NCBI GenBank assembly: GCA_009776805.1
Contig: WRNB01000001.1
Span: forward strand, 1 to 34,286
DNA: 34,286 bases
From: Candidatus Bathycorpusculum grumuli
GTDB taxonomy: Archaea > Thermoproteota > Bathyarchaeia > Bathyarchaeales > Bathycorpusculaceae
Direction: 5' to 3'
Position numbers and translations under genes: made by a program. This document shows, piece by piece, positions 8,383 through 32,254 of the stretch (position 1 is the stretch's first letter; the number at the start of each line of letters is the position of its first letter). The notes beneath the pieces are model-generated. The model made no database searches, had not been told where the DNA came from, and saw only the letters and a program-made list of their open reading frames with translations.

Positions 8383-8589
8383 ATTCGTGTAAATAGTAGA
8401 AAACTTAAGTTTAGGAAGACTTCACATATTGAAGTTAGGCAAGCTGTAAAAGAAAGGCTTAAAAGTCACTTGACCGCTGAAAAGACGGTTTTAAGCCTTA
8501 AAACTGGGCTTTCAAATGCGCCAAACACGTTGGACGCCGTTGAAGTTCGTACTCTTCACAGTAATCAAATAGGAATTGAAACTATATAA
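8383..8589 (+). other. Open frame without a start codon, coding-like
   Basis: A 68-codon frame runs from after the TAA at 8380 to a TAA at 8587-8589, with protein-like, charged composition (it includes TSHIEVRQAVKERLKSHLTAE and APNTLDAVEVRTLHSNQIG) and codon use like the neighbouring core genes. No ATG or GTG lies in frame, only an internal TTG in its middle. It may be a 5'-truncated gene remnant, a gene starting on a rare codon, or not protein-coding. It contains an 11-bp inverted repeat (8454-8499). Its stop falls inside the carA TATA box. I do not recognise the family. Confidence 0.35.
8454..8499 (+). repeat. 11-bp inverted repeat, possible structured RNA
   Basis: AAGGCTTAAAA (8454-8464) and TTTTAAGCCTT (8489-8499) are perfect reverse complements around a 24-nt loop. 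The loop holds GTCACTTGAC, itself a small hairpin, and CCG...CGG. A second short stem, AAGCC...GGCTT, overlaps the right arm, so alternative pairings are possible. It lies about 80 bp before the carA TATA box. Confidence 0.4.
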
Positions 8590-8590
8590 A
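8579..8590 (+). promoter_or_regulatory. carA: carA TATA box
   Basis: GAAACTATATAAAT is a good archaeal TATA box with a purine-rich BRE-like flank. Its centre is about 28 bp before the ATG at 8615, implying a leaderless or nearly leaderless carAB transcript. Confidence 0.6.
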
Positions 8591-8614
8591 TCAAGTTTGG
8601 AGATGCATCACAAC

Positions 8615-13193: not shown

Positions 13194-14699
13194 TTGTCTA
13201 ATCACGATCAGAAAACACGTACAATTGAAGAAATTAATCAAAAAATCATCAAAGGCGATGCTCAAGTTTTAACTGCTGAAGAAATGAAAAAACTCGTAGA
13301 AAGCAGTGGAGTAGAGGTTGCTTTTAAAGAAGTAGATGTTGTAACAACGGGTACTTTTGGAGCAATGTGTTCTTCAGGCGCGGTTATTAATCTTGGTCAT
13401 TCTGACCCGCCAATTAAAATTCAACGGGCATGGCTTAATGATGTAGAAGTTTGTCATCCCGGAGCTGCCGCTGACTTATTTATTGGTGCAACAAATGCCT
13501 GTGAAAAAAAACCTTTTGAATACGGTGGCGGACACATAATTCAAGAATTGGTTTCTGGTAATGAAGTTGAATTACGTGCAACAGCATACGGCACTGACTG
13601 TTACCCTAGAACAGCACTTAACACAAATATAACTAAAGATGATCTTAACCAGTTTTTTTTACTGAATTTTCGTAACTGTTATCAACGTTACAATTGTGCA
13701 ATTAATTGCAGTGACGAAACAATTTACACTTATATGAGCAAACTTTTACCACGCATGCGTAACGCCACATTTTCTGGTGCTGGAGAAATCAGTCCACTTA
13801 TGAATGATCCTAACTATGAAACAATAGGTTTCGGCACAAAAATTTTCTTAGGAGGCGGCCAAGGTTATATCATTGGTGAAGGCACACAGCATAGCCCCAA
13901 AAATTTTAATGGAACACTTATGGTAAAAGGGGATGCTAAAAAAATGAGTCCTGAATTTTTACAGGGCGCAGCGTTTACTCGTTATGGCACATCACTGTAT
14001 GTCGGTTTAGGAATACCCATACCTATTCTTAACGAGGGATTAGTTAGAAAAACTGCTATTCGTGACACTGAGATCTTTACTGACGTAATTGATTATAGTG
14101 TTATGCGTCGAGACAGAACTAAACTGAAACAAGTTTCATATGCTGAACTTAAATCTGGCTCAATCACGGTTAATGACAAACGTGTTCGTGTTAGTTCACT
14201 ATCCAGTTTGAAAATGGCAAAAAAAGTTGCACAAACCCTCAAAAATTGGATTTCTGAAAATCAATTTACTTTAACAGCACCTATTGAGAGACTTCCACTT
14301 GATACCGTTTTTAAACCTATGCGTCAAACACACGAAATTTCATTTGTTTCTACTGTTATGCAATCTGCTGTTACCTGTATGGAAAACGAGGAAATCCGTG
14401 CTATTGCTGAACGGATAGTAACAAAATCTGTAAACCATATAGTTGTCATCAATGGTGATGGTAAATTATTAGGAATAGTTACTTCATGGGATATTACTCG
14501 CGCTATGGCTGAAGGTAAAAAAGCACTTGTTGATATTGAAACTCGCAAAGTTATAACCGCTAATCCTGATGAACCTTTAGAAAGTGCTTCAAAACGTATG
14601 GCACACCATAATATTTCAGCATTACCTGTAATTGATTCTGAACGTAAAGTCTTAGGTATAGTAACATCTGAAGATGTTTCAAAACTGTTAGGGCGGTAA
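13194..14699 (+). CDS. hcyS: Homocysteine biosynthesis protein (DUF39 + CBS pair)
   Basis: DUF39/COG1900 protein of 501 residues. The Methanosarcina homolog (MA1821), with its ferredoxin partner, is required to make homocysteine from aspartate semialdehyde and sulfide without the O-acyl-homoserine route. Visible features are the N-terminal IEEINQKIIKGDAQVLTAEE, a cysteine in AMCSSGAVINLGHS (Cys59), EVCHPGAAADLF, CAINCSDE, and the glycine-rich FLGGGQGYIIGEGTQHSP. Residues from about 385 form two CBS domains (NHIVVINGDGKLLGIVTS and NISALPVIDSERKVLGIVTS), suggesting nucleotide or SAM-type control. The start is TTG at 13194 after AAGGTAAT; no in-frame ATG is near. Five bases separate it from hcyF. 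Confidence 0.88.
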   Translation: MSNHDQKTRTIEEINQKIIKGDAQVLTAEEMKKLVESSGVEVAFKEVDVVTTGTFGAMCSSGAVINLGHSDPPIKIQRAWLNDVEVCHPGAAADLFIGATNACEKKPFEYGGGHIIQELVSGNEVELRATAYGTDCYPRTALNTNITKDDLNQFFLLNFRNCYQRYNCAINCSDETIYTYMSKLLPRMRNATFSGAGEISPLMNDPNYETIGFGTKIFLGGGQGYIIGEGTQHSPKNFNGTLMVKGDAKKMSPEFLQGAAFTRYGTSLYVGLGIPIPILNEGLVRKTAIRDTEIFTDVIDYSVMRRDRTKLKQVSYAELKSGSITVNDKRVRVSSLSSLKMAKKVAQTLKNWISENQFTLTAPIERLPLDTVFKPMRQTHEISFVSTVMQSAVTCMENEEIRAIAERIVTKSVNHIVVINGDGKLLGIVTSWDITRAMAEGKKALVDIETRKVITANPDEPLESASKRMAHHNISALPVIDSERKVLGIVTSEDVSKLLGR

Positions 14700-14703
14700 A
14701 ATT

Positions 14704-15102
14704 ATGACACGCATTCTTGTACGATTAAATGGAATCGTGGTTTCTGAACCTATTGTTTCGGAAGTCATATTGGAAAACAAAGTGTTAGTTGCAATTTTAG
14801 CAGCGCACATAAACTCAAAGGGTGGCGAAATTGTTCTCGAAGTTTTAGAGGATGATGTTGATAAAATAGTGTCAGCTTTTCGCCAGAAAGGTGCAACTGT
14901 AACTGTACCTAAACTTATTGAAGTAGATACCAACCGATGCTTTAGTTGTGGTTCTTGTGTTGCTTTGTGCCCAGTAGAGGCAATAAATGTAGCTGAAGAT
15001 CTATCTATAGAGTTTAACAAGGAGAAATGTATTGGAAGTGCATGTAATATATGTGTGGATGCTTGCCCGTTTAGAGCAATAAACTCGATTAGGCAATTAT
15101 AG
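14704..15102 (+). CDS. hcyF: NIL-domain ferredoxin of homocysteine synthesis
   Basis: 132 residues: an N-terminal NIL domain (RILVRLNGIVVSEPIVSEV to about residue 75) followed by a two-cluster ferredoxin. The homolog MA1822 works with the DUF39 protein, presumably supplying electrons for the thiolation of aspartate semialdehyde. Cluster 1 is classical: C79-x2-C82-x2-C85-x3-C89-P. Cluster 2 reads C109-x4-C114-x2-C117-x3-C121-P, so two residues are inserted between its first two cysteines relative to the classical spacing. GGGCGGT overlapping the end of hcyS is the ribosome binding site. The genes are 4 bp apart and certainly co-transcribed. Confidence 0.88.
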   Translation: MTRILVRLNGIVVSEPIVSEVILENKVLVAILAAHINSKGGEIVLEVLEDDVDKIVSAFRQKGATVTVPKLIEVDTNRCFSCGSCVALCPVEAINVAEDLSIEFNKEKCIGSACNICVDACPFRAINSIRQL

Positions 15103-15119
15103 CACTAAAAACATTAGTT

Positions 15120-15845
15120 ATGATGGATATCGGGAAAAATAAGTTGCGAAACGAGCTCTTCAAAGAAAATTATAGCTATAAAGACAGTGTTTGCCACATA
15201 ATAAGTGATACCCAGCAAGGTATAACAGTTGCTAAAGAATCAATAAATCGTAACTATCAAGAACTTGAAAACTATATACGCACGCATCAAATTTTTTTCC
15301 ACACTTTTGACCCTATTCCAGCACCTGACAAGCCTTTGGTTGCTAAATTAATGGCTTTGGCAGCGCAAAAAGCAAATGTTGGACCCATGGCGGCAGTTGC
15401 TGGTGTTATAGCAGATTTAGCAGTAAATGACATGCAAAAAACCGGTTGCAAAGTTGCAGTTGTGGAAGATGGCGGTGAAATCTTTGCCATTTCTGATAGA
15501 CCAATTGATGTAGCTTTGGCGGCGGGTAACGAGTTATTATCTAAACGTTTTGGCTTTAGACTTGACGAGTTTCCAATTGGGATAGCGACAAGTTCAGGCC
15601 GATTTAGTCACGCTTTTAGTTTTGGTGATGCTGAGGCTGCAACAGTTTTTTGCAGAGATGCAGGTTTGGCAGATGCTGCAGCTACAGCTGTTGGTAATGT
15701 TGTAACGGGAAAAACAGACATGGGAATTGAAGCTGGAATTAAACTGGGTTTAAGTATTCCAGGAGTGTTAGGCGTACTTATTCTATATCAGGGTAAAGTA
15801 GGTACAGCTGGTATCATTCCACAAATAATTAAAATTAAACTCTGA
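15120..15845 (+). CDS. COG2122 / UPF0280 protein, sulfide assimilation
   Basis: ApbE-related UPF0280 protein of about 240 residues. The Methanosarcina member MA1715 was linked genetically to efficient sulfide use for homocysteine synthesis; its biochemical activity is not settled. Family segments visible are VGPMAAVAGVIADLAV, VVEDGGEIFAISDRPIDVAL, IATSSGRFSHAFSFGDAEAA and GLADAAATAVGN. It lies 17 bp after hcyF in the same direction, so all three genes needed for this route sit together. ATG codons at 15120 and 15123 are equivalent; no good ribosome binding site precedes them, so translation may depend on coupling to hcyF. It marks the right edge of the core-gene block. Confidence 0.82.
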   Translation: MMDIGKNKLRNELFKENYSYKDSVCHIISDTQQGITVAKESINRNYQELENYIRTHQIFFHTFDPIPAPDKPLVAKLMALAAQKANVGPMAAVAGVIADLAVNDMQKTGCKVAVVEDGGEIFAISDRPIDVALAAGNELLSKRFGFRLDEFPIGIATSSGRFSHAFSFGDAEAATVFCRDAGLADAAATAVGNVVTGKTDMGIEAGIKLGLSIPGVLGVLILYQGKVGTAGIIPQIIKIKL

Positions 15846-16206
15846 AAAAATTGATTATTAACAACATAAACTCTCAAAATTTCACGTTTTTATAAATTTA
15901 TCAGCAATCAACACAAAACTATACAAAAATTATGTAAAAACATAAAACACGCGCATAACTACACAATTATTTAAACACTTTCAAAACAAAAAAGTCACCA
16001 CTCCGTTTGCAACTCCTACAATAATAACACAAACTAACTTTTCCTACCTAACACATGCCAATAATTAAAGCAACACCACCAAAACATTTAACGACCAAAA
16101 CAGAAAAACCCCCAACCCCCTAACTTAACCAACCTAATATCGTGCTCAGCCAAATTATTATAACACATTGACTTTTTATAAGCAATTACTGTAGTGTAAT
16201 TAGCGG
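15846..16206. other. A/C-rich gene-free stretch
   Basis: Strongly A/C-rich on the plus strand, the mirror image of the T/G-rich spacers elsewhere. No gene or structured element recognised. It runs from the end of the sulfide operon into the transposase relics. Confidence 0.45.
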
Positions 16207-16582
16207 ATGATTAGATTGGTTAAACCACTATCAAACGACAAACGAGCTACCATAATTAAATATATGCAAGAAGGAAAAAACAAAAAAGATATAGCAAAAT
16301 TGTTGCTTATAGCATACGAACAGTAGAGCACATCTGGAAAAATACAAAAAACAAGGCTACTGCGAACCCGAACCACTAAACTGTGGACGAAAACCCAAAG
16401 ACGACAAAACCGCCATAGACAAAATAGTAGCAAAAATTAAACAACAACCTGACATAACCCTCCAAGAACTTATCTATGAATTCAACTTATCTATAAGTCA
16501 ATTTGCACTCTGTAAACGACTATGCAAACTGGAGTTAACTTTTAAAAAAAGGCTCACCATCCAAACAAACAATAACTCCTAA
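16207..16582 (+). pseudogene. IS630-type transposase relic (N-terminal part)
   Basis: Joining three frames gives a coherent N-terminal half of an IS630/Tc1-type transposase: MIRLVKPLSNDKRATIIKY, a helix-turn-helix (KKDIAKLLLI), RTVEHIWK, then YKKQGYCEPEPLNCGRKP, IDKIVAKIKQQPDITLQEL and ending LTFKKRLTIQ, which matches the usual boundary before the DDE domain. Frameshifts lie at about 16,320 (an in-frame TAG follows) and about 16,345. The DDE catalytic domain is not recognisable downstream, so the element is dead. Confidence 0.7.
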
Positions 16583-16891
16583 AAGTGGTGGAAGTATACA
16601 CAATCTATTGATAAACGTAACAAGAACTAAGAACCTGTGTTCAGTAACGCCAACAACATATACAAATGAGGAAACATAAAACATTCTCCACATAAACGAT
16701 CTTAAGTACATAACCTTTTGATAAAATATCCAGACTAATTCACCCACCCAAAAGTCCACTCAACACCATCTTTTTCAACAAAACCGCCCACTCGACTTTC
16801 TTTTCAGAAACATCAATTATCTCACCATATTTCATCCTACAAACTCGACAAAAGTACCTCGATACTCAGCATCACCACACCCACCTACTAT
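16583..16891. other. Decayed sequence between two IS relics
   Basis: Short fragments in several plus-strand frames (e.g. KWWKYTQSIDKRN directly after the IS630 relic) could be the eroded DDE part, but stops interrupt every frame and no catalytic motif survives. Minus-strand open frames here are antisense to this decay. Confidence 0.3.
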
Positions 16892-17122
16892 CTATGAATA
16901 CTTGTTTTTGGCTGTTTGATAAACATGGTATCCACTCATTGTGTCGTGGATAGTTGCAGCGTGAACTTTTACAGCAAGCAGATTTTCCATGATGTTAGTT
17001 GCAATGTGTCTTTTGTGGTCCTTGATTTTTTTCCCGTCAATGTCGTGTTTTTCGTTTGCGTTTGTTGTTTTTGCACTTTGAGAATCTATTAGTCGATAGT
17101 TTGGTTTGTGTGTGTCTTTTGT
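16892..17122 (-). pseudogene. IS5-type transposase relic (C-terminal part)
   Basis: Minus-strand frame of 76 codons containing RLIDSQSAKTTNANEKHDID, GKKIKDHKRHIATNIMENLL and AVKVHAATIHD, the characteristic core of IS5-family DDE transposases (the second catalytic Asp lies in LIDSQS, followed by the GKKIKGRKRH-type segment). A stop precedes it, the N-terminus is absent, and it ends soon after the HAATIHD motif without the C-terminal catalytic Glu region. Truncated at both ends and inactive. Confidence 0.75.
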
Positions 17123-17193
17123 TTATGTGTATTTTTTGGGCCATTTTGTCTATTGCTTTTTCCATTTTTCACTTTTGATGGCTCGTTTTTAGA

Positions 17194-17996: not shown

Positions 17997-18190
17997 ATGA
18001 CCAAAATCAAAAACGAAAAACAACCCAAATGATGCCTAAAACAACACGAACAAAACAACACAACCATAAAATACGTAGCCAACCACCTAAAAATAACCAC
18101 ACAACAATTCAAACAACTCTACACCCAATAAAAAACAACAAACACAGCCCAACAATAGGAAAAAACGTCGGTCGACCCAAAAAACATATG
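17997..18190 (+). pseudogene. IS481/integrase-type transposase relic (HTH part)
   Basis: Reading through one TGA, one TAA and a frameshift gives MTKIKNEKQPK, TTIKYVANHLKITTQQFKQL, YTQ and IGKNVGRPKK. This is the typical order of the N-terminal helix-turn-helix of archaeal IS481/rve-type transposases, where an LY.EY segment leads to a GRPKK linker. No integrase core follows; instead the sequence runs into a 190-bp inverted-repeat element. Inactive. Confidence 0.55.
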
Positions 18191-18367
18191 TCCATAACCT
18201 GCGCACAAGCATTGCGGTGTAACTTTTTTTGTGATAGCATAGTAAATATTTTTGTTACAAAAACCCTATAAACACATTATTTTTGTAGTCACGCAATAGT
18301 TTAGTTCATTGTGAAAAAGTAACCTGCAAAACATGTGCGATGGTTATGGACGTATGGTTTTTTGCGG
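18175..18367. repeat. MITE-like element, copy A
   Basis: About 190 bp with imperfect terminal inverted repeats. The left end reads CAAAAAACATATGTCCATAA then CCTGCGCACA; the right end, complemented, reads CAAAAAACCATACGTCCATA then ACCATCGCACA. The interior has no gene. Its reverse complement matches copy B (27,252-27,441) along nearly its whole length, with shared blocks GCACATGTTTTG, TTTTTCACAATGA, GTTTTTGTAAC and TTGTGCGCAG. No transposase is encoded, so it would move only with help. Confidence 0.65.
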
Positions 18368-18513
18368 TTTGGGTTAGTTCTTCTATATACCAGGGTTTGG
18401 AGAATCATAGTACTGTTTCTAAGAATTTGTTGATGTTTTCGTTGGTTTCCATGTGTTTGTCATAGTGTGAGGTGGCTTATGAATTTACCCACCTTTTTTA
18501 ACGAAGAACCAAA

Positions 18514-18525
18514 AATATATTAATA
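18514..18525 (+). promoter_or_regulatory. TATA box of the Kelch gene
   Basis: AATATATTAATA lies about 30 bp before the ATG at 18552, predicting a very short leader. Confidence 0.4.
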
Positions 18526-18551
18526 ATACTTTTTACTTGTATAAGTGATTA

Positions 18552-19805
18552 ATGATGAATATTCGGGGTAGTTATTTAGTTAAATTGTTTGTCGGCGTGT
18601 TTGTTTTTCTTTTGTTTTTGCAGGTCTTTTTAGTTTCTGCTGTTGAGGTAACTGGGGATTACTGGATAACTAAGAACGCATTGCCGGTTGAACGTGTTCC
18701 TATGAGTGGAGTGGTTACTTCTAATGGTCTGATATACGTAATTACTAGTGATGCTATTGATGTGTATAATCCTGTTACAGACACATGGACAACAAAAACG
18801 CCAATGCCCACCTCACGGGATCATTTTGGTGCTGCTGTTTATAAAAACAAAATCTATGTCATAGGGGGTTATTGTGATGAAGCTAACGATCGGCATACTG
18901 TGGCAGTTAATGAGGTTTATGATGTGGTGTCTGATACTTGGGAAACAAAAACACTAATGCCCTCTGCCAGAGGAGAATTTAGTGTTAATGTATTTAACGG
19001 TAAAATCTATGTGATAGGTGGATCAAAAAATAGGTTCGGTATTGAGGATATAGGGTTTGAGTCTAATGTTAATTTGGTTTATGATACAGCAACTGATACT
19101 TGGAGTAGTAAAACTCCTATTCCAAGGCAGTTTGTTGGTGTGGCTCCATATATTCGTGAGGGTGTGTCTGGTGTTATAGATGGTAAAATATATCTGGCTT
19201 CTTGGGGGACTACGGATATAGCTTCTTGGGGGGCTATTGAGGCTTTAACGTTAATTTATAATCCTGTAACTGACACATGGAGTTATTGTATGCCTATTTC
19301 GACTTTCGCATTAAACGCAGTTGGTGGCGTGACTACGGGTGAAATGGCACCTAAGAGGCTTTATGTTGTGGGTGGAAATTCAGATGGTACTTTGGTTCAG
19401 ATTTATGACCCTGCATCTGATACTTGGGTTATGGGGTCTTCAATGCCAACAGGCCGTAGCGGATGCGGTGCAGTCATGGTAAATGATTGTTTATATGTAA
19501 TTGGTGGCACAAATTCCAATAATACTCACGTAGTTGCTAACGAAATGTACGTCCCAGAAAGACACAGCTCACCCCCTCCACAACCCAGTGTAACCCTGTC
19601 CAACACCATTTCAAGCCCACTGCCTAATTCATCTTCCACAATCATGTATGCTTTAGTCATCATAACAGTTATTATACTGGTGATAGCAGTGACAACATTT
19701 ACGTTAAAAGGTAAAAAGAGAAAAAACGTTACTTCCATGAAAACATTTGACTGCTTTCATAGTTCTTCTAACATCGACCGCAGTCGATGGCGAAGTCTCT
19801 CATGA
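18552..19805 (+). CDS. Membrane-anchored Kelch-repeat surface protein
   Basis: 417 residues. An N-terminal signal peptide (LVKLFVGVFVFLLFLQVFLV) precedes about six Kelch blades, each with a DTW motif before a YVIGG-type strand (YNPVTDTWTTKTPMP, YDVVSDTWETKTLMP, YDTATDTWSSKTPIP, YNPVTDTWSY, YDPASDTWVMGSSMP). This is enough for one closed six-bladed beta-propeller. A Pro/Ser linker (about 345-365), a transmembrane helix (about 367-388) and a basic tail anchor it to the membrane facing outwards. Likely roles are binding or adhesion; no enzyme motif is seen. The plus strand is rich in T and G compared with the carAB genes, like the ABC cluster downstream. ATG codons at 18552 and 18555 are equivalent. 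Confidence 0.8.
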   Translation: MMNIRGSYLVKLFVGVFVFLLFLQVFLVSAVEVTGDYWITKNALPVERVPMSGVVTSNGLIYVITSDAIDVYNPVTDTWTTKTPMPTSRDHFGAAVYKNKIYVIGGYCDEANDRHTVAVNEVYDVVSDTWETKTLMPSARGEFSVNVFNGKIYVIGGSKNRFGIEDIGFESNVNLVYDTATDTWSSKTPIPRQFVGVAPYIREGVSGVIDGKIYLASWGTTDIASWGAIEALTLIYNPVTDTWSYCMPISTFALNAVGGVTTGEMAPKRLYVVGGNSDGTLVQIYDPASDTWVMGSSMPTGRSGCGAVMVNDCLYVIGGTNSNNTHVVANEMYVPERHSSPPPQPSVTLSNTISSPLPNSSSTIMYALVIITVIILVIAVTTFTLKGKKRKNVTSMKTFDCFHSSSNIDRSRWRSLS

Positions 19806-20328
19806 AAATCTGCCATAGATATCTTGCAACACACTATATTTCTGAAACCAACAACACGACAAAATCAACACTATTTAACTTTCCCAAACGCCGCCAAACA
19901 ATCAATCGAACACAACAACAAACACCACCCAAACACACGAGCTACAAAAATTGTTTCGCATACTTTTATACTTGACGTGTTGGAATCGCGATACCAATAG
20001 GTAAAACGACTATACAAATGGATTTTTAGAGTAAATCGCATACTTAAACAAAATAAGAGTAAAAAACACCAAAAAGTTCTACACAAGTTGAAGCTGAAAT
20101 GCTTGTGTGTTTTGATAAACTCTTAAAGCTGCGTTCTAGATGTTTAGTGGATTGGTTGGTTGTTGTGAATATTTTAAAGTTTATGGCCAGTTATTCGTAA
20201 TTCTCGACTTTTTTCTTACCACAATTTGCGATGTTGAACAAGAAGACAGTTGCATTAAAATAATGTTGTTATTTGTGTTTTGTAGTCAAACGGTACTATA
20301 GTTTTGATGGTTTGTACACTCGTCTTAG

Positions 20329-20462
20329 TGGTAATAAATATTTATTACCATTAACACATTAGCATGATATACTTGTTTTTATTTACGAATTTTTGTGGTT
20401 TGTGTATGTTTTGAAAAAGTTTTTACAGTTATGTATTTCGGTTTTTGTGGTAATAAATATTT
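20329..20462. repeat. 22-bp palindrome with a half-copy 119 bp away
   Basis: 20329-20350 is a perfect 22-bp palindrome built on TGGTAATAAAT and its complement. Its first 15 bases, TGGTAATAAATATTT, recur directly at 20448-20462. The spacing and AT-rich core would fit a regulator site or the edges of a lost insertion; no gene is certain nearby. Confidence 0.4.
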
Positions 20463-20983
20463 CGGGAATTACGGGTTATTGGGAGGGACTATTTTATCAT
20501 TGCGATAAAGCGATTGTTTCTATGGCTAATATTGATTTGGAGCGGTTTATCCGTTGTCTAAAGGTGATTTTTCGTAAAATTATTGGTCGTGTCTGGTTGT
20601 TATGGTTTTGTGGTTTGGTGTGTTGTTTTTGTGGTGTTGTTTGATGGTTTTTTGGGTTTTGATAAGGTGTTGGTGTTGTTTGGGTTGTTGGGTGTGATGT
20701 TTTTCGGGAGTGTTTTGGTGAGGTTTGTTTTGGTGTTGGGTGGGTTTTTGGTGTTGGTTGGGGGTTTTATGGGTTGTGTTGATGTTTTAGTGGTTTAATG
20801 GGTTAGAGTTGTTGTGTGATTGTGGCTAGTGAAGTTCGAATGTTTGTTTTTGTAGTGGTGGCTCTTTTTTGTGTTTTTGTGTGTGTTTTTTGTGGTTTTG
20901 GGTTTGAGGTTGTGTTTTGTGTTTAAGTGAGAATTTTTGTGTTGTTTGTTTTTTTAGTGGGAAATGTGTTTGAAAAACTAGTG

Positions 20984-21006
20984 GGTTATGGACATACGGT
21001 TTTTTT
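20984..21006. repeat. Solo end of the MITE-like element
   Basis: GGTTATGGACATACGG followed by seven T matches the right-hand terminal repeat of the MITE-like copy A (GGTTATGGACGTATGG plus T-run). No matching left end or interior is found within 200 bp, so this is a remnant or chance match. Confidence 0.35.
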
Positions 21007-21136
21007 AAATCTAAACACCATTTGTTTAGGAGTGTTTTGTTGCTGAGGGGGTATGTTTTTTAGTCTTGGTAGTGCTGGTTATGGTGGGTTTATGGTTTGT
21101 AAAAAAATGTGAGGTTTAGTTGTTTATTGTGGGTGT

Positions 21137-21616
21137 TTACATTACTGCGACGCAGTCAATTTGTACGTTACCTGTAGTTATGATTAACATGTAGTTGAAT
21201 GTTATAGGTGCGATACCGTAGTACCAAGCTCCATTTGAATTATTGATTGAATGTGTTACTACGTGGGGTGGATTATTTCCTGGAACGCCGTAACTGACGT
21301 ATACTGTCAGTTGTCCGTTGCCTTTTGCATAGATTCCAATGTATGAGCCTTTGGTTATGGTAGTGTTAAAATTGATGATAATTTTTCCGCTGGACGGATG
21401 TAATATTATGTAGGTAGTGTTAGTTCCTATGATATTGTTTGGATTACCGACGTTTACGTAGTCGCAAACGCTTTGTGCACAGGCTGGGTTTCGTGTTGGT
21501 GTTGTTGGTTGGTTTGTGTTTGTTGTTGTTTGTGCGGTAGCTGGTAGTATGATGCTTGCAAACATGGTGACACATAGTAAAATTGTTATGGTTATTGTTG
21601 TTATTTTTTTGTTCAT
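21137..21616 (-). CDS. Small secreted protein, tandem paralog 1
   Basis: 159 residues with a clear signal peptide (TITITILLCVTMFASIILPATAQ), a low-complexity Thr/Asn/Pro linker (TTTNTNQPTTPTRNP), then a compact, probably beta-rich domain (GSYIGIYAKGNGQLTVYVSY, NNPPHVVTHSI, GAWYYGIAPI) ending in DCVAVM. No transmembrane anchor, so likely released or loosely wall-associated. Family unknown. The start is supported by AAGGTGA seven bases before the ATG. It is a close paralog of the gene just upstream (21773-22270): two blocks are nearly identical in DNA, while the middle (about residues 56-83) differs. A TIR-like remnant lies about 130 bp past its stop. Confidence 0.65.
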   Translation of the reverse strand: MNKKITTITITILLCVTMFASIILPATAQTTTNTNQPTTPTRNPACAQSVCDYVNVGNPNNIIGTNTTYIILHPSSGKIIINFNTTITKGSYIGIYAKGNGQLTVYVSYGVPGNNPPHVVTHSINNSNGAWYYGIAPITFNYMLIITTGNVQIDCVAVM

Positions 21617-21772
21617 ATATTTTTCACCTTCTGTTCTATTTTTTAGTTTGGTTGTGTTGATTTTGGGTTGGTTTTTTTGTGTCTTGTTCGTGATAATGGT
21701 TGTTGGTGATAGTTGGGTTAAACATTGTGTGTAAATAAAAAAAGGTGGAAAGTTCGTTTGATTGTTTAGTGT

Positions 21773-22270
21773 CTACATACTTACGACGCAATCGACATCC
21801 ACATTACCTGTCTCTGATGTAACTGATATGTGGTTGAATTTTATAGGTGCGATACCGTAGTACCAAGCTCCATTTGGACTATTGATTGAATGTGTTACTA
21901 CGTGGGGTGGATTATTTCCTGGAACGCCGTAACTGACGTATACTGTCAGTTGTCCGTTGCCTTTTGCATAGATTCCAATGTATGAGCCACTATTTATGTC
22001 AGTGTTCATTGAGCAAATAACTTTTCCTTGGCTGTGAAATTGTGTGAATTTTCCGTCTGGTCCGCTGCCTAGCATGTAGGTTGGATTGCCAACATTTACG
22101 TAATTGTAAACGCTTTGTGCGTATCCGGGGTTTCGTGTTGGTGTTGTTGGTTGGTTTGTGTTTGTTGTTGTTTGTGCGGTAGCTGGTAGTGAGAGTGTTG
22201 CAAACATTGTTATGCACAGTAGAATTGCTATCGGTGTGATTATTAATTTTTTACTCATTTTTTTATTCAT
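21773..22270 (-). CDS. Small secreted protein, tandem paralog 2
   Basis: About 165 residues, with the same plan as its neighbour: a signal peptide (LIITPIAILLCITMFATLSL, then PATAQ), an identical TTTNTNQPTTPTRNP linker, then the conserved GSYIGIYAKGNGQLTVYVSY and GAWYYGIAPIKF blocks, ending DVDCVVSM. The segment after YVNVGNP (YMLGSGPDGKFTQFHSQGK) differs strongly from paralog 1. I choose the ATG at 22270, which matches the paralog's MNKK start; a GTG three codons upstream (22279) is possible, and GTGATC lies just before the ATG. The gene is divergent from the ABC permease at 22418, sharing an intergenic region with a (TA)9 run and an inverted repeat. No family recognised. Confidence 0.65.
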   Translation of the reverse strand: MNKKMSKKLIITPIAILLCITMFATLSLPATAQTTTNTNQPTTPTRNPGYAQSVYNYVNVGNPTYMLGSGPDGKFTQFHSQGKVICSMNTDINSGSYIGIYAKGNGQLTVYVSYGVPGNNPPHVVTHSINSPNGAWYYGIAPIKFNHISVTSETGNVDVDCVVSM

Positions 22271-22311
22271 ATTGATCACGTTTTTTTATTATATAATTAA
22301 ATACTAATGCC

Positions 22312-22329
22312 TATATATATATATATATA
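22312..22329. repeat. (TA)9 dinucleotide run
   Basis: Nine TA units in the 147-bp divergent promoter region between the secreted paralog and the ABC permease. It may contribute TATA-like sequence for the minus-strand gene; such runs are prone to length change. Confidence 0.5.
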
Positions 22330-22356
22330 CTTTTCGTTTTATGTTTTTTTGCAATA

Positions 22357-22375
22357 TTGCCATACTATATGGTAA
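22357..22375. promoter_or_regulatory. Inverted repeat, possible operator of the ABC cluster
   Basis: TTGCCATA-CTA-TATGGTAA is an inverted repeat with 7 of 8 positions paired, next to the palindrome GCAATATTGC (22351-22360). It lies about 25 bp before a TATA-like TTATAAA (22401-22407), where archaeal regulators often bind. Function is inferred from position only. Confidence 0.3.
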
Positions 22376-22417
22376 CAGTTAAATAGTTAATTAGCCACAA
22401 TTATAAAAGGGACATGT

Positions 22418-23863
22418 ATGGGAATTCTGTCAATGTCTGTTCGCAGTTTAATGCGAAGAAAAAACCGAACAATAATAGCAATCATTACATTAACCCTTGC
22501 CCTAACATTAATCACCATTCTACCCCCAAGCATTAACGCAAGACAAGAACTTACACAAAACGTGCTTGATAATCTAATTTTTAGTGCAGATTTTCTTAAG
22601 GATCAGGTTACATTATCAGCAACTGAAATAGAATGTAACTACCCCATAACAACAACAATATCCACGTCTAAAGGTAGCAACCTTCGAGGAGATGGTACAC
22701 TTATAGATTTGGTGTTGCAGGATATGATGAATGCGTCTTTATGTGATAGTATTGCTGCTCTTCCAGATGTTGTTGATGTTGTGCCCACACGTATAGATTG
22801 GAACACAGAAAGCCGACTATATCACATTTATGGCGTGGACGTAAATAATGGTGTTTTTCAAAAGAATCCTACTGTTTTACCTGCAAACATTACTGCTGGT
22901 CGTAATTTACAGGCTGGAGATAGCGGTGTTGTTGTTATAGATGAGATTCTTGCTAAGCAGGCTTTTCCTTATGGTGATGGTAAGTTTGAAACAAATGAGG
23001 AATACGATGCAGCTTTAGCTGAATGGCAGACTAAAGATTATGTTTATAACGTTGGAGATTTTTTTGAAGTTCTAGGCCACGAATTTACGATAGTGGGTGT
23101 TGAGGGTGGTGTTCTTACTTCTAGTACTCATGGTGTTACTATGTGTTTAGAGGATGCTCAAGCTATTACTGGTAATACTGGTAGGGTGTCGTCTCTTAAG
23201 GTGTTTGTTAATGATGTTGATAATGTGAATAGTGTGGTTGCTAGGATTAAGAGTTTGGATTCTGATTTGGTGGTTTCTTCTGGGTTTACTCAGTTAAATA
23301 CGGTTTCGCCTTTGCAGAATCAGGTTGTTTCGTTGACTTTGGTGGCTCAAAACAACCTAAATCAGGTCAGAGGGGTAGGTATAGCTGAGATTGGGGTTAG
23401 TGTGGTTGCTGTTGTAGCTGTAATTTTGTTTATGATGCTCTACAGTGTGCGTGAACGCACAAAGGAGATTGGTACGTTAAAAGCACTTGGAGCTAGTACG
23501 CGGAGGATTTTGGGACAATTCATGCTTGAAGGCATATTACTGTGCGTTATTGCATCATTAATTGCTATCGCGGTTAGCACTTTTGTGTTGCCTCAGCTCT
23601 CGAGTCTAATATTGCCTATTCCAGTACAAGAGGGGCTTAACGTAGGATTTGATGCAAATGGAGCATTAACCCTGTATAGAATGTCTAGTGGAGCTATGCC
23701 TTTTCTTCCCGGTGAGGCTCCCCGTGTTATTGGGGCTTCTTTGAGTGTTGGGTGGTTGGTGCTATGTTTTGTGTTGTCGGTGGTGTTGGGTGCGCTTGGA
23801 AGCCTATACCCCGCCCTAAAAGCTGCTAGAACTAAACCATCGGAGGCAATGAAATATGAATAA
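22418..23863 (+). CDS. ABC transporter permease, FtsX/MacB type (first)
   Basis: 481 residues. An N-terminal helix follows RSLMRRKNRT, then a large extracytoplasmic MacB-type domain (about residues 45-310), then three helices. The cytoplasmic coupling signature VRERTKEIGTLKALGAS is after the first of these, and GSLYPALKAARTKPSEAMKYE is the conserved C-terminal end. Proteins of this type do not carry substrates through a channel; they use ATP hydrolysis inside to move extracytoplasmic domains in export, lipoprotein release or signalling. The gene overlaps the ATPase gene by 8 bp. Starts at 22418 (after AAGGG) or 22433 (leaderless from TTATAAA at 22401) are both possible. It is a clear paralog of the second permease at 25850. 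Confidence 0.88.
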   Translation: MGILSMSVRSLMRRKNRTIIAIITLTLALTLITILPPSINARQELTQNVLDNLIFSADFLKDQVTLSATEIECNYPITTTISTSKGSNLRGDGTLIDLVLQDMMNASLCDSIAALPDVVDVVPTRIDWNTESRLYHIYGVDVNNGVFQKNPTVLPANITAGRNLQAGDSGVVVIDEILAKQAFPYGDGKFETNEEYDAALAEWQTKDYVYNVGDFFEVLGHEFTIVGVEGGVLTSSTHGVTMCLEDAQAITGNTGRVSSLKVFVNDVDNVNSVVARIKSLDSDLVVSSGFTQLNTVSPLQNQVVSLTLVAQNNLNQVRGVGIAEIGVSVVAVVAVILFMMLYSVRERTKEIGTLKALGASTRRILGQFMLEGILLCVIASLIAIAVSTFVLPQLSSLILPIPVQEGLNVGFDANGALTLYRMSSGAMPFLPGEAPRVIGASLSVGWLVLCFVLSVVLGALGSLYPALKAARTKPSEAMKYE

Positions 23864-24590
23864 CATCAACAAAAACAATAGTAATGATTCGATATTAAAA
23901 ATTGAGAATTTGTCTAAAATCTACAAATCAGGTAAGCGGAGTGTGCAGCCGTTGGTTGGTCTTGATTTGGAGATAGTTAAAGGTGAGTTTGTGTCTGTTA
24001 TGGGGCCATCTGGTTCAGGTAAAACTACTCTGTTAAACATTGTTGGTTGCATTGATCGTGCGACAAGTGGAAATGTGTTTTTGGATGGGGTGGATGTTGC
24101 ACGGCTGTCTGAAGATAAACTCTGCAAAATAAGACGTGACAAAATTGGGTTTGTGTTTCAAAGTTTCAACCTTGTATCCTACCTCAGTGCTAGGGAGAAT
24201 GTGGAGTTGGCCATGGAGCTTGCAGGCAAATTCAAAGGGCAACGTAAACAACGAGCTTTAGAGTTTCTTTCTTTGGTGGGTTTGTCTGGGCGTGAGTTAC
24301 ATCGTCCTTCTAGGTTGAGTCAGGGGGAGCAGCAGCGTGTGGCTATTGCTAGGGCGTTGGTTAATGATCCTGCTATTGTTTTGGCTGATGAGCCTACGGG
24401 TAATTTGGATGTAGCTAATAAGCAAGAAATTATCAAGCTGCTTTTGGAACTTAATGGGGAGAGGGGTGTGTCTGTTGTTATGGTGACTCATGATGAGGGG
24501 GTTGCTTCTCAGACAGGTCGTGTGCTTTATTTGCAGGATGGCAAAATTGTCCAAGACAAACAACAAAAAAACAGTATGATAGTAAGTTGA
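23856..24590 (+). CDS. ABC transporter ATP-binding protein (LolD/MacB type)
   Basis: 244 residues, cytoplasmic motor for the FtsX/MacB-type permeases on either side. Walker A is GPSGSGKTT (residues 50-58), the Q-loop is VFQSFNL, the signature is LSQGEQQRVA (about 154-163; Gln replaces the second Gly-side residue of LSGGQ, as is frequent in this subfamily), Walker B is AIVLADEPTGNLD, and the H-loop histidine is in VTHDEG. All catalytic positions are intact. The start codon lies inside the end of the upstream permease (8-bp overlap), so translation is coupled. Only one ATPase is encoded for two permeases, suggesting a heterodimeric transporter. The membrane-anchored beta-propeller gene starts 24 bp later. 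Confidence 0.93.
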   Translation: MNNINKNNSNDSILKIENLSKIYKSGKRSVQPLVGLDLEIVKGEFVSVMGPSGSGKTTLLNIVGCIDRATSGNVFLDGVDVARLSEDKLCKIRRDKIGFVFQSFNLVSYLSARENVELAMELAGKFKGQRKQRALEFLSLVGLSGRELHRPSRLSQGEQQRVAIARALVNDPAIVLADEPTGNLDVANKQEIIKLLLELNGERGVSVVMVTHDEGVASQTGRVLYLQDGKIVQDKQQKNSMIVS

Positions 24591-24614
24591 GGATGAGTTA
24601 AAGAGGAATATTTG

Positions 24615-25850
24615 ATGATGAATTTAAAGTTGAAAAGAATTGTTGGTTGTTTTAGTATATTTGTTTGTGTGTTTGCTTTCTTATTTGTGGGGTTTGTTGA
24701 GGCTACAAGTGTATCTACTGTGTCTGTTGGTGGGATGCCTTATGCTTTGGCGGTGACTCCTGATGGCTCGTTTGTTTATGTTCCTAATGGTGAGGATGTT
24801 GCCGTAATAGACACAGCCACTAGTAAGGTGGTGGAGAGAGTGAATGTTGGGGTTAATCCTTCTGATGTGGCAGTATCACCTAATGGTGAGTATGTTTATG
24901 TTACAAATCGTGATTTTGATGGTGAGGGGTCGGTTTCTGTTATAAGGGTGGCTACTAACACGGTAACTTCGACAATTGTGGTTGGGGGTGATCCTTTGTT
25001 TGTGGTGGTGTCGTCTGATGGTTTGTATGTTTATGTGTTGAAAAGTGAGTTTGTAGATGTTGGTGGGGGGTATTATCAGTCGTTTGGGGTGGTTTCAGTG
25101 GTGAGTACGGCTACGCATTCTGTTTTATCTAATATAACTGTTGGGAGGGGACCTTCTGGTTTGGCGGTGTCGCCTGATGGAAATCATCTTTATGTTACAA
25201 CTGTGGAGGGGTTGCTTTTTGTTGTTGACCCTTCTCTTAAGACAGAAACGGCAAGCATAACTGTTAGTGATGCTGGTCTTAGGGATGTGGTAGTGTCGCC
25301 TGATGGGAAGTATGTGTATGTGGTGGGTTTTATGGCGGTTTTTGTGGTGAGTACTGAGAGTGATGCAGTGGTTGCTGTGGTGTCTGATTTGGGAGCTCCT
25401 ATGGGTTTGGCGTTATCAACTGATGGGGATTATGTTTATGTTACTGAGAACTGGAATAATACGGTGTCAGCTATAAATACTGCTACAAATCTTGTAGATT
25501 TTTCTATAGATGCTGGTGTGGTCCCTTATGGGGTGGTGGTGTCGCCTGATGGGAAGTATTTGTATGTGTCTAATCTTGATTATGTTGCAACAGATTCTCC
25601 TGTTGTAACGTATGTTGGTACTGTTTCAGTGATTAGTACTGACCCTGACGTGTTTGTGTTTGGTTCTTCTTCTATTTGGTTGTGGGTGGTTATTGTGATG
25701 TGTGCTGTTGTTGTGGCGGCAGTTGCTTTCTTAGTGATTATACGTATAAAGTGCAAAAAAACCAAAACAGCTTTTTCCACAAACTCTAACATAAACAATA
25801 ACGTAATAACCAAACCTCAGCTAATATCTCAATTTTGTGTTTTTGTTTAG
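24615..25850 (+). CDS. Membrane-anchored YVTN-type beta-propeller protein
   Basis: 411 residues. A signal peptide (about 5-30, ending VEA) leads into about seven repeats of the YVTN type, each with an SPDGKYVYV-like motif (TPDGSFVYV, SPNGEYVYV, SSDGLYVYV, SPDGNHLYV, SPDGKYVYV, STDGDYVYV, SPDGKYLYV). They form one seven-bladed propeller outside the cell, followed by a C-terminal helix (IWLWVVIVMCAVVVAAVAFLV) and a basic tail. ATG 24615 follows GAGGA by seven bases; an in-frame TTG at 24612 is less likely. Encoded between the ATPase and the second permease, it may be the extracytoplasmic partner of the transporter. The domain plan parallels the Kelch protein at 18552 with a different propeller family. 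Confidence 0.85.
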   Translation: MMNLKLKRIVGCFSIFVCVFAFLFVGFVEATSVSTVSVGGMPYALAVTPDGSFVYVPNGEDVAVIDTATSKVVERVNVGVNPSDVAVSPNGEYVYVTNRDFDGEGSVSVIRVATNTVTSTIVVGGDPLFVVVSSDGLYVYVLKSEFVDVGGGYYQSFGVVSVVSTATHSVLSNITVGRGPSGLAVSPDGNHLYVTTVEGLLFVVDPSLKTETASITVSDAGLRDVVVSPDGKYVYVVGFMAVFVVSTESDAVVAVVSDLGAPMGLALSTDGDYVYVTENWNNTVSAINTATNLVDFSIDAGVVPYGVVVSPDGKYLYVSNLDYVATDSPVVTYVGTVSVISTDPDVFVFGSSSIWLWVVIVMCAVVVAAVAFLVIIRIKCKKTKTAFSTNSNINNNVITKPQLISQFCVFV

Positions 25851-27178
25851 TGTGTGGGGTGTTGTTTGTGTTGTTTGTGCGTAGGGCGTTTCGATCGGTT
25901 TTTAGGCGGTGGGCGCGTTCTGTTTTAGTGGTTGGGGTTTTGTGTTTTATTTTTGCTTTGTTGGTTTCTATTCCTCCTAGTTTGGAGACGAGTCGGGTGG
26001 CTACGCAGCGGTCTATTGATGTTTTGTCTGCTAATGCTATGGAGGTTAATGCTACGGTTGGGTTGGTGGCTACACAGATTAGTTGTCGGTTGCCTGAAGT
26101 TTCTGTGCCCTTGTCTGAGGATGATAATAAAACTGTGGTGGTGCAACCGTTTATGAATATGACGCAGTACACAAGCAACATTACAGAGATTCCACATGTT
26201 AAGTCTGTTTTTCCTGTGTATGAGACGGAAGTTAATGTGTCGGGGTTTGTGTTTGAGGTTTGTGGTTTGCCTGTGGAGGATTCTTCTTTGTTTAGTGTGG
26301 GTTCTCTTATGTTACCTTCCAACGTTTCTGAGGGTCGTAATTTGGAGGTTGGTGATGCTGGGGTGGTGGTGCTACAGGAGCATGTTGCCGACCATTTTAA
26401 CGTAGATGTGGGTGATGTTGTAAAAATTTTAGGCGGATCATTTCGGGTAATTGGGATTGAAGGTTACACCGCACTTAACAACACCGTGGTGTATGTGGGT
26501 CTTGGTGATGTTTGGGTGTTGACGGATAATGTGGGGAATGCTACAAGCGTTAGGGTTTTTGTTGATGATGTTTCAAATGTGGAGGAGGTTGCTAACTGTC
26601 TTAGTGTGACTTTTTCAGAGTTGTCGGTTTCTTTTTCTGCGGGGTTGGTTTATTCTGTTTTGCAGACGCAGGGTCAGACTGAGGCACAATTAACTTTGGC
26701 GCAGGAGACTTTGAGTCAGATTGAAAGCATGGGTGTAATGGAGTTGGGGATTGTGGTGGTGGTTGCTTGTTTTCTTGTATTATTTATCATGTTATATACT
26801 GTGCGAGAAAGAACAAAAGAAATTGGGACGCTGAAGGCACTGGGGGCTAGTGGTTGGTCTGTTTTGGGTCAGTTTGTGTTTGAGGGTGTTTTGCTTTGTT
26901 TTGTTGCAGGTTTGTTTAGTGTGGTGGTTAGTGTTGTTGGGGGTTCTTTTTTTGCTAATTTGCTTCTTCCTTCTCCTGTTGTTGGGGGTGAGAGTTCTTT
27001 ATCTTCAGGTGGTGTGGTTTTAGGTGAGGCTTCTTCACAAGCCATTTCAATAGTTTTAACGCCCGAGTTTGTGTTATTTGGTTTAGGTATTGCTGTATTG
27101 TTAGGTGCATTTGGCAGCTTGTATCCTGCATGGCGGGCATCAAGAACAAGACCAGCCGAAGCTATGCGCTACGAATAA
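25850..27178 (+). CDS. ABC transporter permease, FtsX/MacB type (second)
   Basis: About 442 residues, same architecture as the permease at 22418: N-terminal helix after FRRWARSVLVV, extracytoplasmic domain, then three helices with VRERTKEIGTLKALGAS and the end GSLYPAWRASRTRPAEAMRYE. The two share these signatures but have diverged extracytoplasmic domains, fitting a heterodimer driven by the single ATPase. The start is uncertain: no ATG lies near the beginning. TTG 25835 overlaps the propeller gene by 16 bp; GTG 25850 overlaps its stop by one base (TAGTG) and is my choice. The coding strand is strikingly T/G-rich compared with the core genes. No gene follows for 800 bp, so this ends the operon. 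Confidence 0.85.
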   Translation: MCGVLFVLFVRRAFRSVFRRWARSVLVVGVLCFIFALLVSIPPSLETSRVATQRSIDVLSANAMEVNATVGLVATQISCRLPEVSVPLSEDDNKTVVVQPFMNMTQYTSNITEIPHVKSVFPVYETEVNVSGFVFEVCGLPVEDSSLFSVGSLMLPSNVSEGRNLEVGDAGVVVLQEHVADHFNVDVGDVVKILGGSFRVIGIEGYTALNNTVVYVGLGDVWVLTDNVGNATSVRVFVDDVSNVEEVANCLSVTFSELSVSFSAGLVYSVLQTQGQTEAQLTLAQETLSQIESMGVMELGIVVVVACFLVLFIMLYTVRERTKEIGTLKALGASGWSVLGQFVFEGVLLCFVAGLFSVVVSVVGGSFFANLLLPSPVVGGESSLSSGGVVLGEASSQAISIVLTPEFVLFGLGIAVLLGAFGSLYPAWRASRTRPAEAMRYE

Positions 27179-27251
27179 CCCAATGTCATCAGGTTATCGT
27201 TAAATAAGAAAACTAAATTGCACAACTAAACAAAAACACAAAAACATAAAC

Positions 27252-27441
27252 AAACAAAAAACCATGAGTTCATAAGCATTGCACATGTTTTGTAGGTTGT
27301 TTTTTCACAATGATCTGAATTATTATGTGTCTATAAAAATATTTATAGTGTTTTTGTAACCAAAATGTTTGTTGTGATGTTACGAAAAAAAGTTACACTA
27401 TAATGTTTGTGCGCAGACTATAAATATATGGTTTTTTGTTT
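27252..27441. repeat. MITE-like element, copy B
   Basis: 190 bp bounded by perfect 14-bp inverted repeats: AAACAAAAAACCAT at 27252-27265 and its complement at 27428-27441. The interior matches the reverse complement of copy A (18,175-18,367), roughly three quarters identical by eye. No reading frame inside. TAAA lies near both outer flanks but I cannot fix a target duplication. Confidence 0.7.
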
Positions 27442-27501
27442 TAAATAGGTTTTGTTTTGTCATTGGTGATTTCTATTTGTTTTGTTTTATTAGTTTGTTT
27501 A

Positions 27502-27586
27502 GGTAGTCTCCGAAAGCCTTCTAAATATGGTTTGAACCGCTGATACGCCATGTTTAGGGGTAAAAGGTGGGTTTTCGGAGGTTGTC
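27502..27586. repeat. Two-part long hairpin, possible structured RNA or element
   Basis: CTCCGAAAGCC (27508-27518) pairs with GGTTTTCGGAG (27570-27580), with one G-U. Inside it CTAAATATGG (27521-27530) pairs with CCATGTTTAG (27548-27557), with one G-U, leaving a 17-nt apical loop; wobble pairing can extend the base to 27502/27586. The lower-stem right arm resembles TTTTTGGAGGTTGCC near 851-865. Confidence 0.4.
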
Positions 27587-27925
27587 TTTAGTGTTGTTTG
27601 TTTTTGTATTGCTAGTGTGTATTGTGTTGTTTTGTTGAATGTTTGTTTTTATGTTTTGTTTGGCGTGTTTGTTGTTTTGTGTGGTTTGAAGTTAGGGTGT
27701 TTGGTGTTTGTGTTTTGGTTAAGGAGCCTGCTAGGATGGTGAGTGCGATTTGTAGTAAGTTTGGTGTAGATTTGTCTTTCAGGGTTTTTGTTTGTGGTAA
27801 GAAATAATGCGGGAATTATGGTTTATGTGTTTTTTATGTTTGCTTCAACTATGATTCACAAAAACTATGTCCAAAAAAAATTGAACAGAGCGTATGAACT
27901 TTAAATTTGGTGAAAAGTTTGCTAC

Positions 27926-27976: not shown

Positions 27977-29314
27977 ATGTCTCAACGAAAAATCATTATT
28001 ATTGGAGCGGCTGGACGCGATTTCCATAATTTTAATACATTTTTCCGGAATAATCTTGATTATAATGTGGTGGCGTTTACTGCTGCCCAAATTCCGGATA
28101 TAGCGAATAGAAAATACCCTGCTGAACTTGCTGGTAAGCTTTATCCTGAAGGAATTCCTATTTATGCCCAAGATGAACTTGAGTCAATCATCAAAAAATT
28201 TGATGTTGATGAATGTGTTTTTTCATATAGTGATGTTCCATACTCTGTGGTTATGGGTATTGGTGCGCAAGTAAATGCTGCTGGTGCAGATTTTTCTTTG
28301 ATGGGTTACAAAAATACTATGCTTAAAAGCACTAAACCAGTGGTTGCTGTTGGTGCGGTTCGTACAGGGTGTGGTAAAAGTCAAACTTCTCGGCGTGTTG
28401 CGGAGATATTGATGTCTTATGGGTTAAAAGTTATTGCGGTTCGTCATCCTATGCCATATGGTGATTTGGTTGCTCAGAAAGTGCAGCGTTTTGCTGATGT
28501 TGAAGATTTAAAAAAACATAATTGTACAATAGAAGAGATGGAGGAATATGAGCCTCATATTACTCGGGGGAATGTGATTTATGCTGGTGTGGATTATGAA
28601 GCGATTTTGTGTGCTGCTGAAAATGATCCAAATGGTTGTGATGTTATTTTATGGGATGGGGGTAATAACGATTTTCCATTTTTCCGTCCTGATTTGATGA
28701 TTACAGTGGTAGATCCGTTGCGGCCGGGTCATGAGCTTGCATATTATCCAGGTGAAGTGACATTACGTTTGGCTGATGTTGTGGTAATCAATAAGATTGA
28801 TAGTGCAGATTTTGATAATATTTTAACGGTTAGGAACAATATTGAGCGTGTAAATCCAAAAGCTACAGTGGTGGATGCTGCTTCAACTATTAGTGTAGAT
28901 AAACCAGATGTTATTCGAGGTAAGCGGGTGTTGGTGGTTGAAGATGGTCCAACATTGACTCATGGTGAAATGAAAATAGGTGCTGGTATTGTGGCTGCTC
29001 GTCGTTTTGGTGCTGCTGAAATTATTGATCCTAGGCCATATGCAGTTGGTAAGTTGTCTGAAACATACAGGATTTATCCAAATATTGGAAAATTGTTACC
29101 TGCCATGGGTTATGGTGAGCAACAGATGAATGATTTATCGGTAACTATTGATCGGACAGAATGTGATTCTGTTATTGTTGCAACACCAATTGACTTGGAA
29201 AGAATTATAAGAATTAATAAACCCGTTACACGTGTGAAATATAATTTACAGGAAATCGGTCACCCAAACATGGAAGACGTTTTAGAAAATTTTGTTAAAA
29301 AAATTAAAAAATGA
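27977..29314 (+). CDS. COG2403 P-loop protein, putative cyclic 2,3-diphosphoglycerate synthetase
   Basis: 445 residues. The N-terminal ~115 residues have a Rossmann-like start (KIIIIGAAGRDFHNFN); a P-loop GAVRTGCGKS follows at 126-135, then a DGGNNDFPFFRPDL segment, VVINKID (a G4-type NKxD motif) and a C-terminal region ending HPNMEDVLENF. The length fits the archaeal cyclic 2,3-diphosphoglycerate synthetase from methanogens (about 460 residues), and relatives are often given that name; others are called GTPases because of the NKID motif. The substrate cannot be decided from sequence alone. The start is firm: GTGGAGG about ten bases before the ATG. It is a single gene, followed by a T-rich tract. 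Confidence 0.75.
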   Translation: MSQRKIIIIGAAGRDFHNFNTFFRNNLDYNVVAFTAAQIPDIANRKYPAELAGKLYPEGIPIYAQDELESIIKKFDVDECVFSYSDVPYSVVMGIGAQVNAAGADFSLMGYKNTMLKSTKPVVAVGAVRTGCGKSQTSRRVAEILMSYGLKVIAVRHPMPYGDLVAQKVQRFADVEDLKKHNCTIEEMEEYEPHITRGNVIYAGVDYEAILCAAENDPNGCDVILWDGGNNDFPFFRPDLMITVVDPLRPGHELAYYPGEVTLRLADVVVINKIDSADFDNILTVRNNIERVNPKATVVDAASTISVDKPDVIRGKRVLVVEDGPTLTHGEMKIGAGIVAARRFGAAEIIDPRPYAVGKLSETYRIYPNIGKLLPAMGYGEQQMNDLSVTIDRTECDSVIVATPIDLERIIRINKPVTRVKYNLQEIGHPNMEDVLENFVKKIKK

Positions 29315-31733: not shown

Positions 31734-32254
31734 GCGTTTAAATGGTGTGTTTTGCTTAAATTTATTAAAACTTTAAAATAACTATTTTTGGTGTGGTTGA
31801 ATTTTTTTATGTTGTATTTTGTGTTATTTCTTTTAATTTGGTAGTGTTTGGGTTAGTTGGTAGGTGTGTTGGGGTAGGGTGTGGTGTTGTGTGTTAGTAG
31901 TGTAGTGTTAATGTTTGTGGAGTGTATGTGTTGTGGAGGTGTAAAAATTGTGAAATTTGAGGGCAAGTCATAAAATGGATTAAACGATATTTTTTTGAAA
32001 AATCAAAAACTTGAATAAATCAACACCAGTTTTGTGTATAAGTAATGGTTTAGAAAGCCTAATTCTCAGTTGGTTGGGGTGGTGTTTGTTGGGGTGGTTT
32101 TGTTTGTGTTGTCTAAGATGTATGGTTGTTGAGGTTTGTGGGTGGGTGGGAGTGTTTGTGTGTTTTGCCTAAGAAGACAGGAAATCTATGATTTTTTTTG
32201 ATTTGCTTAAAATTTCATAGGGGTAACTTTGAAAAGTTACGGATATAAAGATTT
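31734..32254. other. T/G-rich gene-free stretch
   Basis: Plus strand strongly T/G-rich (31,790-32,170) with no credible gene on either strand. A 7-bp hairpin, GTAACTT-TGAA-AAGTTAC, lies at 32,223-32,240, next to GGATATAAAG, a TATA-like sequence before the decayed frame at 32,255. Confidence 0.45.

Follow-up and report, generated by a model that had tools for sequence, protein, structure and literature searches.

Paired inverted repeats beside a surface/ABC gene block in a termite-gut Bathyarchaeia genome as probable independent insertions of one MITE family

Introduction

The window analysed here, a stretch of 34,286 bp from the genome of Candidatus Bathycorpusculum, a termite-gut archaeon, carries two similar repeats, A and B, on either side of a block of Kelch, secreted and ABC genes. 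Do they act as a pair that brought the block in or flips it, or did each arrive by itself? The genome comprises 2.29 Mb in 173 contigs, and the genome-wide counts given below come from searches of these contigs.

MITEs are a recognised but little-studied component of archaeal genomes, known from Sulfolobus, Halobacterium, Haloquadratum and others (reviewed in PMC10969869). The one open-access paper we found naming Bathycorpusculum is, by its title and abstract, taxonomic (PMC10684969), and our search of the freely accessible literature found no MITE description for Bathyarchaeia.

Results

Repeats A and B belong to a dispersed MITE family

The initial annotation had proposed an inverted pair of MITE-like elements of ~190 bp, and the comparison of the two copies bears this out: the reverse complement of A aligns end to end with all of B, and their cores are 79% identical throughout. 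Because a genome search with A retrieves B at E = 1.9e-38, the similarity far exceeds that of two AT-rich spacers. Aligning the copies together with their flanks gave family-wide boundaries, with similarity beginning at CC, ending at GG, and A or T runs outside; the elements placed earlier at 18,175-18,367 and 27,252-27,441 are real, but their true edges lie slightly further in (Table 1). The perfect 14-bp terminal inverted repeat once ascribed to B, AAACAAAAAACCAT, proved to be mostly flanking A/T tract and foreign to the family, whose real end is the 16-bp CCATAYGTCCATAACC. A retains this diagnostic end almost unchanged, and B has a degraded form of it (CCATGAGTTCATAAGC).

The initial annotation had called for a search for further copies, and the searches found them. 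Query B matched 38 places, the weakest of which are probably chance, and query A 28, many of them common to both; merged by position, these amount to ~25 dispersed loci, several of them broken up by other insertions or truncated at contig ends. The best copies carry CCATAYGTCCATAACC as terminal inverted repeats on both ends. The end pattern CCATAYGTCCATAAYC occurs in the genome at 19 exact and 26 one-mismatch sites, and allowing up to three mismatches gives 140 sites, where the reversed-pattern control gives 63. In public records, the long form of the ends was found only in Candidatus Bathycorpusculum MAGs, congeners of the window genome, and a scan of IMG/VR for the ends returned none.

With non-coding cores of 170–174 bp, many copies, and inverted ends of which 15–16 of 16 bp are identical to both ends of a transposase-bearing element (described below), A and B are members of a real and ordinary MITE family, a known kind of element in a new lineage. 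Like prokaryotic MITEs generally, it is 100–200 bp long, intergenic, multicopy and without a gene, and shares its ends with an IS; unlike them, its target duplication is masked by homopolymer tracts and is missing in more than a third of the two-ended copies. As far as could be checked, this is the first MITE family described in Bathyarchaeia. The closest relatives of A are C3:22027 (89%) and C140 (86%), and that of B is C13:5759 (85%). Since each copy is closer to others elsewhere in the genome than A is to B, the two appear to be separate insertions from different sub-lineages.

Insertion sites are A/T tracts

Empty and occupied sites could be compared inside a second dispersed element, whose end, CAATGTCATCAGRYTATC, occurs at 27 genome sites (control, 0) and also bounds an IS with an intact DDE_Tnp_1 transposase (C74:387-1783). 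An A-tract ~30 bp inside this end is empty in C21, C50 and C106 and filled by the MITE in other copies: the empty CTTAAAAAATAACACAAC of C21 corresponds at C3:51681 to CTTAAAAA, the MITE, and then AAAAAATAACACAAC, and at C29 and C4:25148 the MITE occupies the same tract in reverse orientation. The A-tract that holds B is slightly deeper within such an end (27,181), and a congener MITE copy has AAAATA/AAAATA flanks. Judged from these sites, insertion appears to go into the A-tract with duplication of ~5–8 bp.

The initial annotation had looked to empty sites for target duplications, and these can indeed be seen at the nested sites and in the congener copy but are absent at A and B. Both, and five other copies, are preceded by A6 and followed by T6, with no target duplication, so duplication is not general; across 19 two-ended copies, a copy's own flanks match barely better than those of shuffled partners (p ~0.07–0.11). 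The absent duplications may be due to recombination between copies or to decay.

A partner IS shares the 16-bp ends

Our scan of public genomes returned one contig with both long kinds of end, from the congener G005 (G005:C76, locus L108). It holds an IS of 1.87 kb with intact inverted ends, CCATAYGTCCATAACCCACTAG, and T8/T8 flanks; on both sides its ends are the same 16-bp ends as in the MITE family. A transposase-bearing partner had been implied by the lack of one in A and B, and this IS now gives it a name, with its transposase broken into three frames. The binned contigs yielded no intact transposase of the partner IS.

The first part of the broken transposase matches PF10551 (MULE) at 32.6 bits (cut-off 27.6), PF00872 (Transposase_mut) at 25.7 (21), and PF01610 (DDE_Tnp_ISL3) above the Pfam gathering threshold, matches that include the catalytic domain of the MULE/Mutator-type DDE superfamily. 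Against the NCBIfam equivalogs it scores 38 bits for IS256 (cut-off 150) and 12 bits for ISL3 (cut-off 180), too low to pass the curated model of either family. Full-length homologues from another family of the same order match the same models weakly, one of them reaching 24.7 bits with the curated IS256 model, and sequence comparison with solved structures found nothing resembling the transposase. From these profiles, we place it as a MULE/Mutator-type enzyme in the IS256 / Mutator (MULE) / ISL3 group of DDE transposases. The partner resembles that group in these domain matches and in being a 1.87-kb element with inverted ends; it differs from IS256 and ISL3 in falling far under the equivalog cut-offs, in the sequence of its ends and in its poly-A/T targeting.

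Homology between the MITE and the IS is limited to the terminal 16 bp. Their interiors are unrelated, and simple descent of the MITE family by internal deletion is therefore not shown; we rejected the idea that the MITE arose from the partner IS by loss of its interior. A separate 204-bp element, G000:C22:11810-12013 (L056:1511-1714), retains both partner-IS subtermini and is apparently a direct internal-deletion derivative.

Besides the MITEs, the window genome contains longer kinds of end, beginning CCATATGTCCATAACCCACTAGTTTTTCAAACAC and CCATACGTCCATAACCCACTAGATGATTGCACAAT. Several of these sit on contigs that stop ~100 bp further in, as would be expected for a multicopy element lost in assembly. 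Contigs C74, C75, C138, C145 and C161 stop in this way within an IS end, and the ends on C74, C75 and C138 are nearly identical. Fragments of the IS occur on C85, C9, C7, C28 and C17, elsewhere in the genome, and in the window at 19,895-20,999. We also considered as partner an IS5-like transposase remnant beside an IS end at C48 and rejected it: the IS-end homology stops short of it, and other copies of the end lack the remnant.

The window contains nested mobile-element remains

The solo end reported at 20,984 is real, with one mismatch (GGTTATGGACATACGG, 20984-20999), but it is not solitary: it forms the 3' terminus of a truncated IS copy. This copy is split by a MITE of another family, with a 6-bp target duplication, GTTATT (20190-20195 / 20475-20480), for which the congener IS provides the empty site. 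A relative of the ~90-bp inverted-repeat element near B is inserted within the MITE copy C52:1578-1857. The puzzling repeats of the window can thus be explained as a layered graveyard of at least three miniature families and IS remnants, nested in one another.

Table 1. Mobile elements and remnants near the gene block, in window coordinates (L108 IS, the 1.87-kb IS of the congener).
Feature	Coordinates	Strand	Description
MITE copy A	18184..18357	-	Core of 174 bp forming a long imperfect hairpin; orientation opposite to B; flanks A6 / T6
IS remnant, first part	19895..20195	+	IS nt 1040-1341, C-terminal half of transposase; 82.5% identical to L108 IS
278-bp MITE of another family	20196..20473		Ends CGTAATTCYCGA; inside IS remnant; ~10 further copies at 81-95%
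IS remnant, second part	20475..20999	+	IS nt 1336 to 3' terminus
End of second dispersed element	27181..27255	+	CAATGTCATCAGRYTATC; B in A-tract just inside
MITE copy B	27262..27431	+	Core of 170 bp with 5-bp internal deletion and degraded ends; flanks A6 / T6
~90-bp inverted-repeat element	27500..27590		TAGGTAGTCTCCGAAA...TTTCGGAGGTTGTCTTTA; also given as CTCCGAAA...TTTCGGAG

Transposase remnants also lie at 16205-17160. They consist of an N-terminus at 16,207-16,323 (+), presumably HTH-like, and a stop-riddled fragment at ~16,760-17,160 (-), which resembles one at C48 and which we take to be IS5-like.

The gene block in congeners

In G005, 267 bp separate the orthologues of 13,194-15,845 (including 15,120-15,845) from that of 27,977-29,314, which is in the opposite relative orientation. 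Twelve kb of the window are absent at this place, and G005 has its ABC cluster on a different contig. Across the genus, this cluster varies. A second, paralogous cluster in the window genome (L226 = G000:C126:1-5024) has the order permease-ATPase-beta-propeller-permease, with 81% identity for the ATPase and 74% for the last permease, and it ends without A/B-type repeats.

In G001 and G024, gene 27,977-29,314 lies next to the orthologue of 7,148-7,843; in G004 and G024, it lies next to that of 8,576-9,742. With order and orientation around it differing among congeners, more than one rearrangement must have occurred in the genus. The gene itself is conserved, at 80–89% in 12 congeners, and the repeated change of its neighbours marks a rearrangement hot spot.

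Discussion

We consider it most probable, at about 0.88, that A and B are old, independent insertions of one MITE family, most likely mobilised in trans by an IS, and that they have no joint function. The family would consist of ~174-bp cores with CCATAYGTCCATAACC ends and no coding capacity, moved most likely by the MULE/Mutator-type DDE transposase of the 1.87-kb IS that has the same 16-bp ends and likewise sits in A/T tracts. Its targets would be poly-A/T tracts, often within the ends of other mobile elements, of which ~5–8 bp would be duplicated, and the block between A and B would not have been moved by them as a composite.

It was tempting to read the surface/ABC block as a mobile unit with A and B as its borders, and the initial annotation had suggested that the pair could mark how the block arrived. 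Such an origin, with A and B as the termini of an imported composite or transposon-like unit, would agree with the 12 kb missing from G005, where the flanking orthologues are so closely spaced, and with the variation of the ABC cluster within the genus. However, the two copies are too divergent for such a pair and each is nearer to other copies; the DNA absent from G005 begins near 15,850, 2.3 kb outside A, so that the edges do not coincide; neither copy has a target duplication; and the history of gene 27,977-29,314 involves more than one rearrangement. We regard this origin as very improbable. The related proposal that recombination between A and B would invert the block finds some encouragement in their opposite orientation and spacing of 9 kb. 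Yet recombination is unlikely because they share 79% identity and at most 14 bp of uninterrupted identity, and no flipped arrangement is found in relatives, whose block is not at this place; we give it just as little credence. The evidence does not support a bracketing function for the A–B pair, and the mobile-unit reading is removed accordingly from the interpretation of the block.

A further possibility is that the repeat is no mobile element but a regulatory hairpin or a conserved structured RNA, since A folds into a strong, near-complete hairpin (z −6.5). But this hairpin is lost in B, which folds no better than shuffles (z −0.7), the consensus fold of 15 copies is a negligible −0.58 kcal/mol with one compensatory pair, and there is no Rfam match within the window. 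We rejected this reading, which is very unlikely to be correct. Taken as independent MITE insertions, A, B and their relatives offer insertion-history markers for an uncultured termite-gut Bathyarchaeia lineage, a group whose mobilome has hardly been described.

Strand-directional substitutions

Differences among the 17 full MITE copies comprise 393 transitions and 109 transversions. The transitions are strongly one-directional per copy (e.g., 38:1 and 0:14), although these counts are inflated by sharing within sub-lineages, private substitutions alone being few (p 0.07). In MITE and IS copies, the direction is either C>T with A>G or G>A with T>C: compared to the congener IS, the copy on C85 shows 143 G>A/T>C against 29, and that on C9 shows 61 C>T/A>G against 21. 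This bias suggests strand-asymmetric deamination or subfamily drift. Direction per copy showed no correlation with local strand skew (rho 0.08–0.27, not significant).

Intergenic keto/amino skew in the window is extreme, with keto skew of +0.88 at 1-150, about +0.7 at 20,551-21,000 and −0.72 at 18,001-18,150. Skewed stretches occur throughout the window (for example 1-300, 18001-18150, 20551-21000, 27601-27750 and 31801-31950), and the skew flips sign over a few hundred bases. One speculation, which we think unlikely to hold, is that a strand-directional process of mutation in such a genome has left its record in the copies. If it did, the MITEs would be probes of local strand-asymmetric deamination, linked to transcription or replication. 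A and B both lie at AC-to-GT skew switches and, on the same premise, could mark divergent transcription boundaries.
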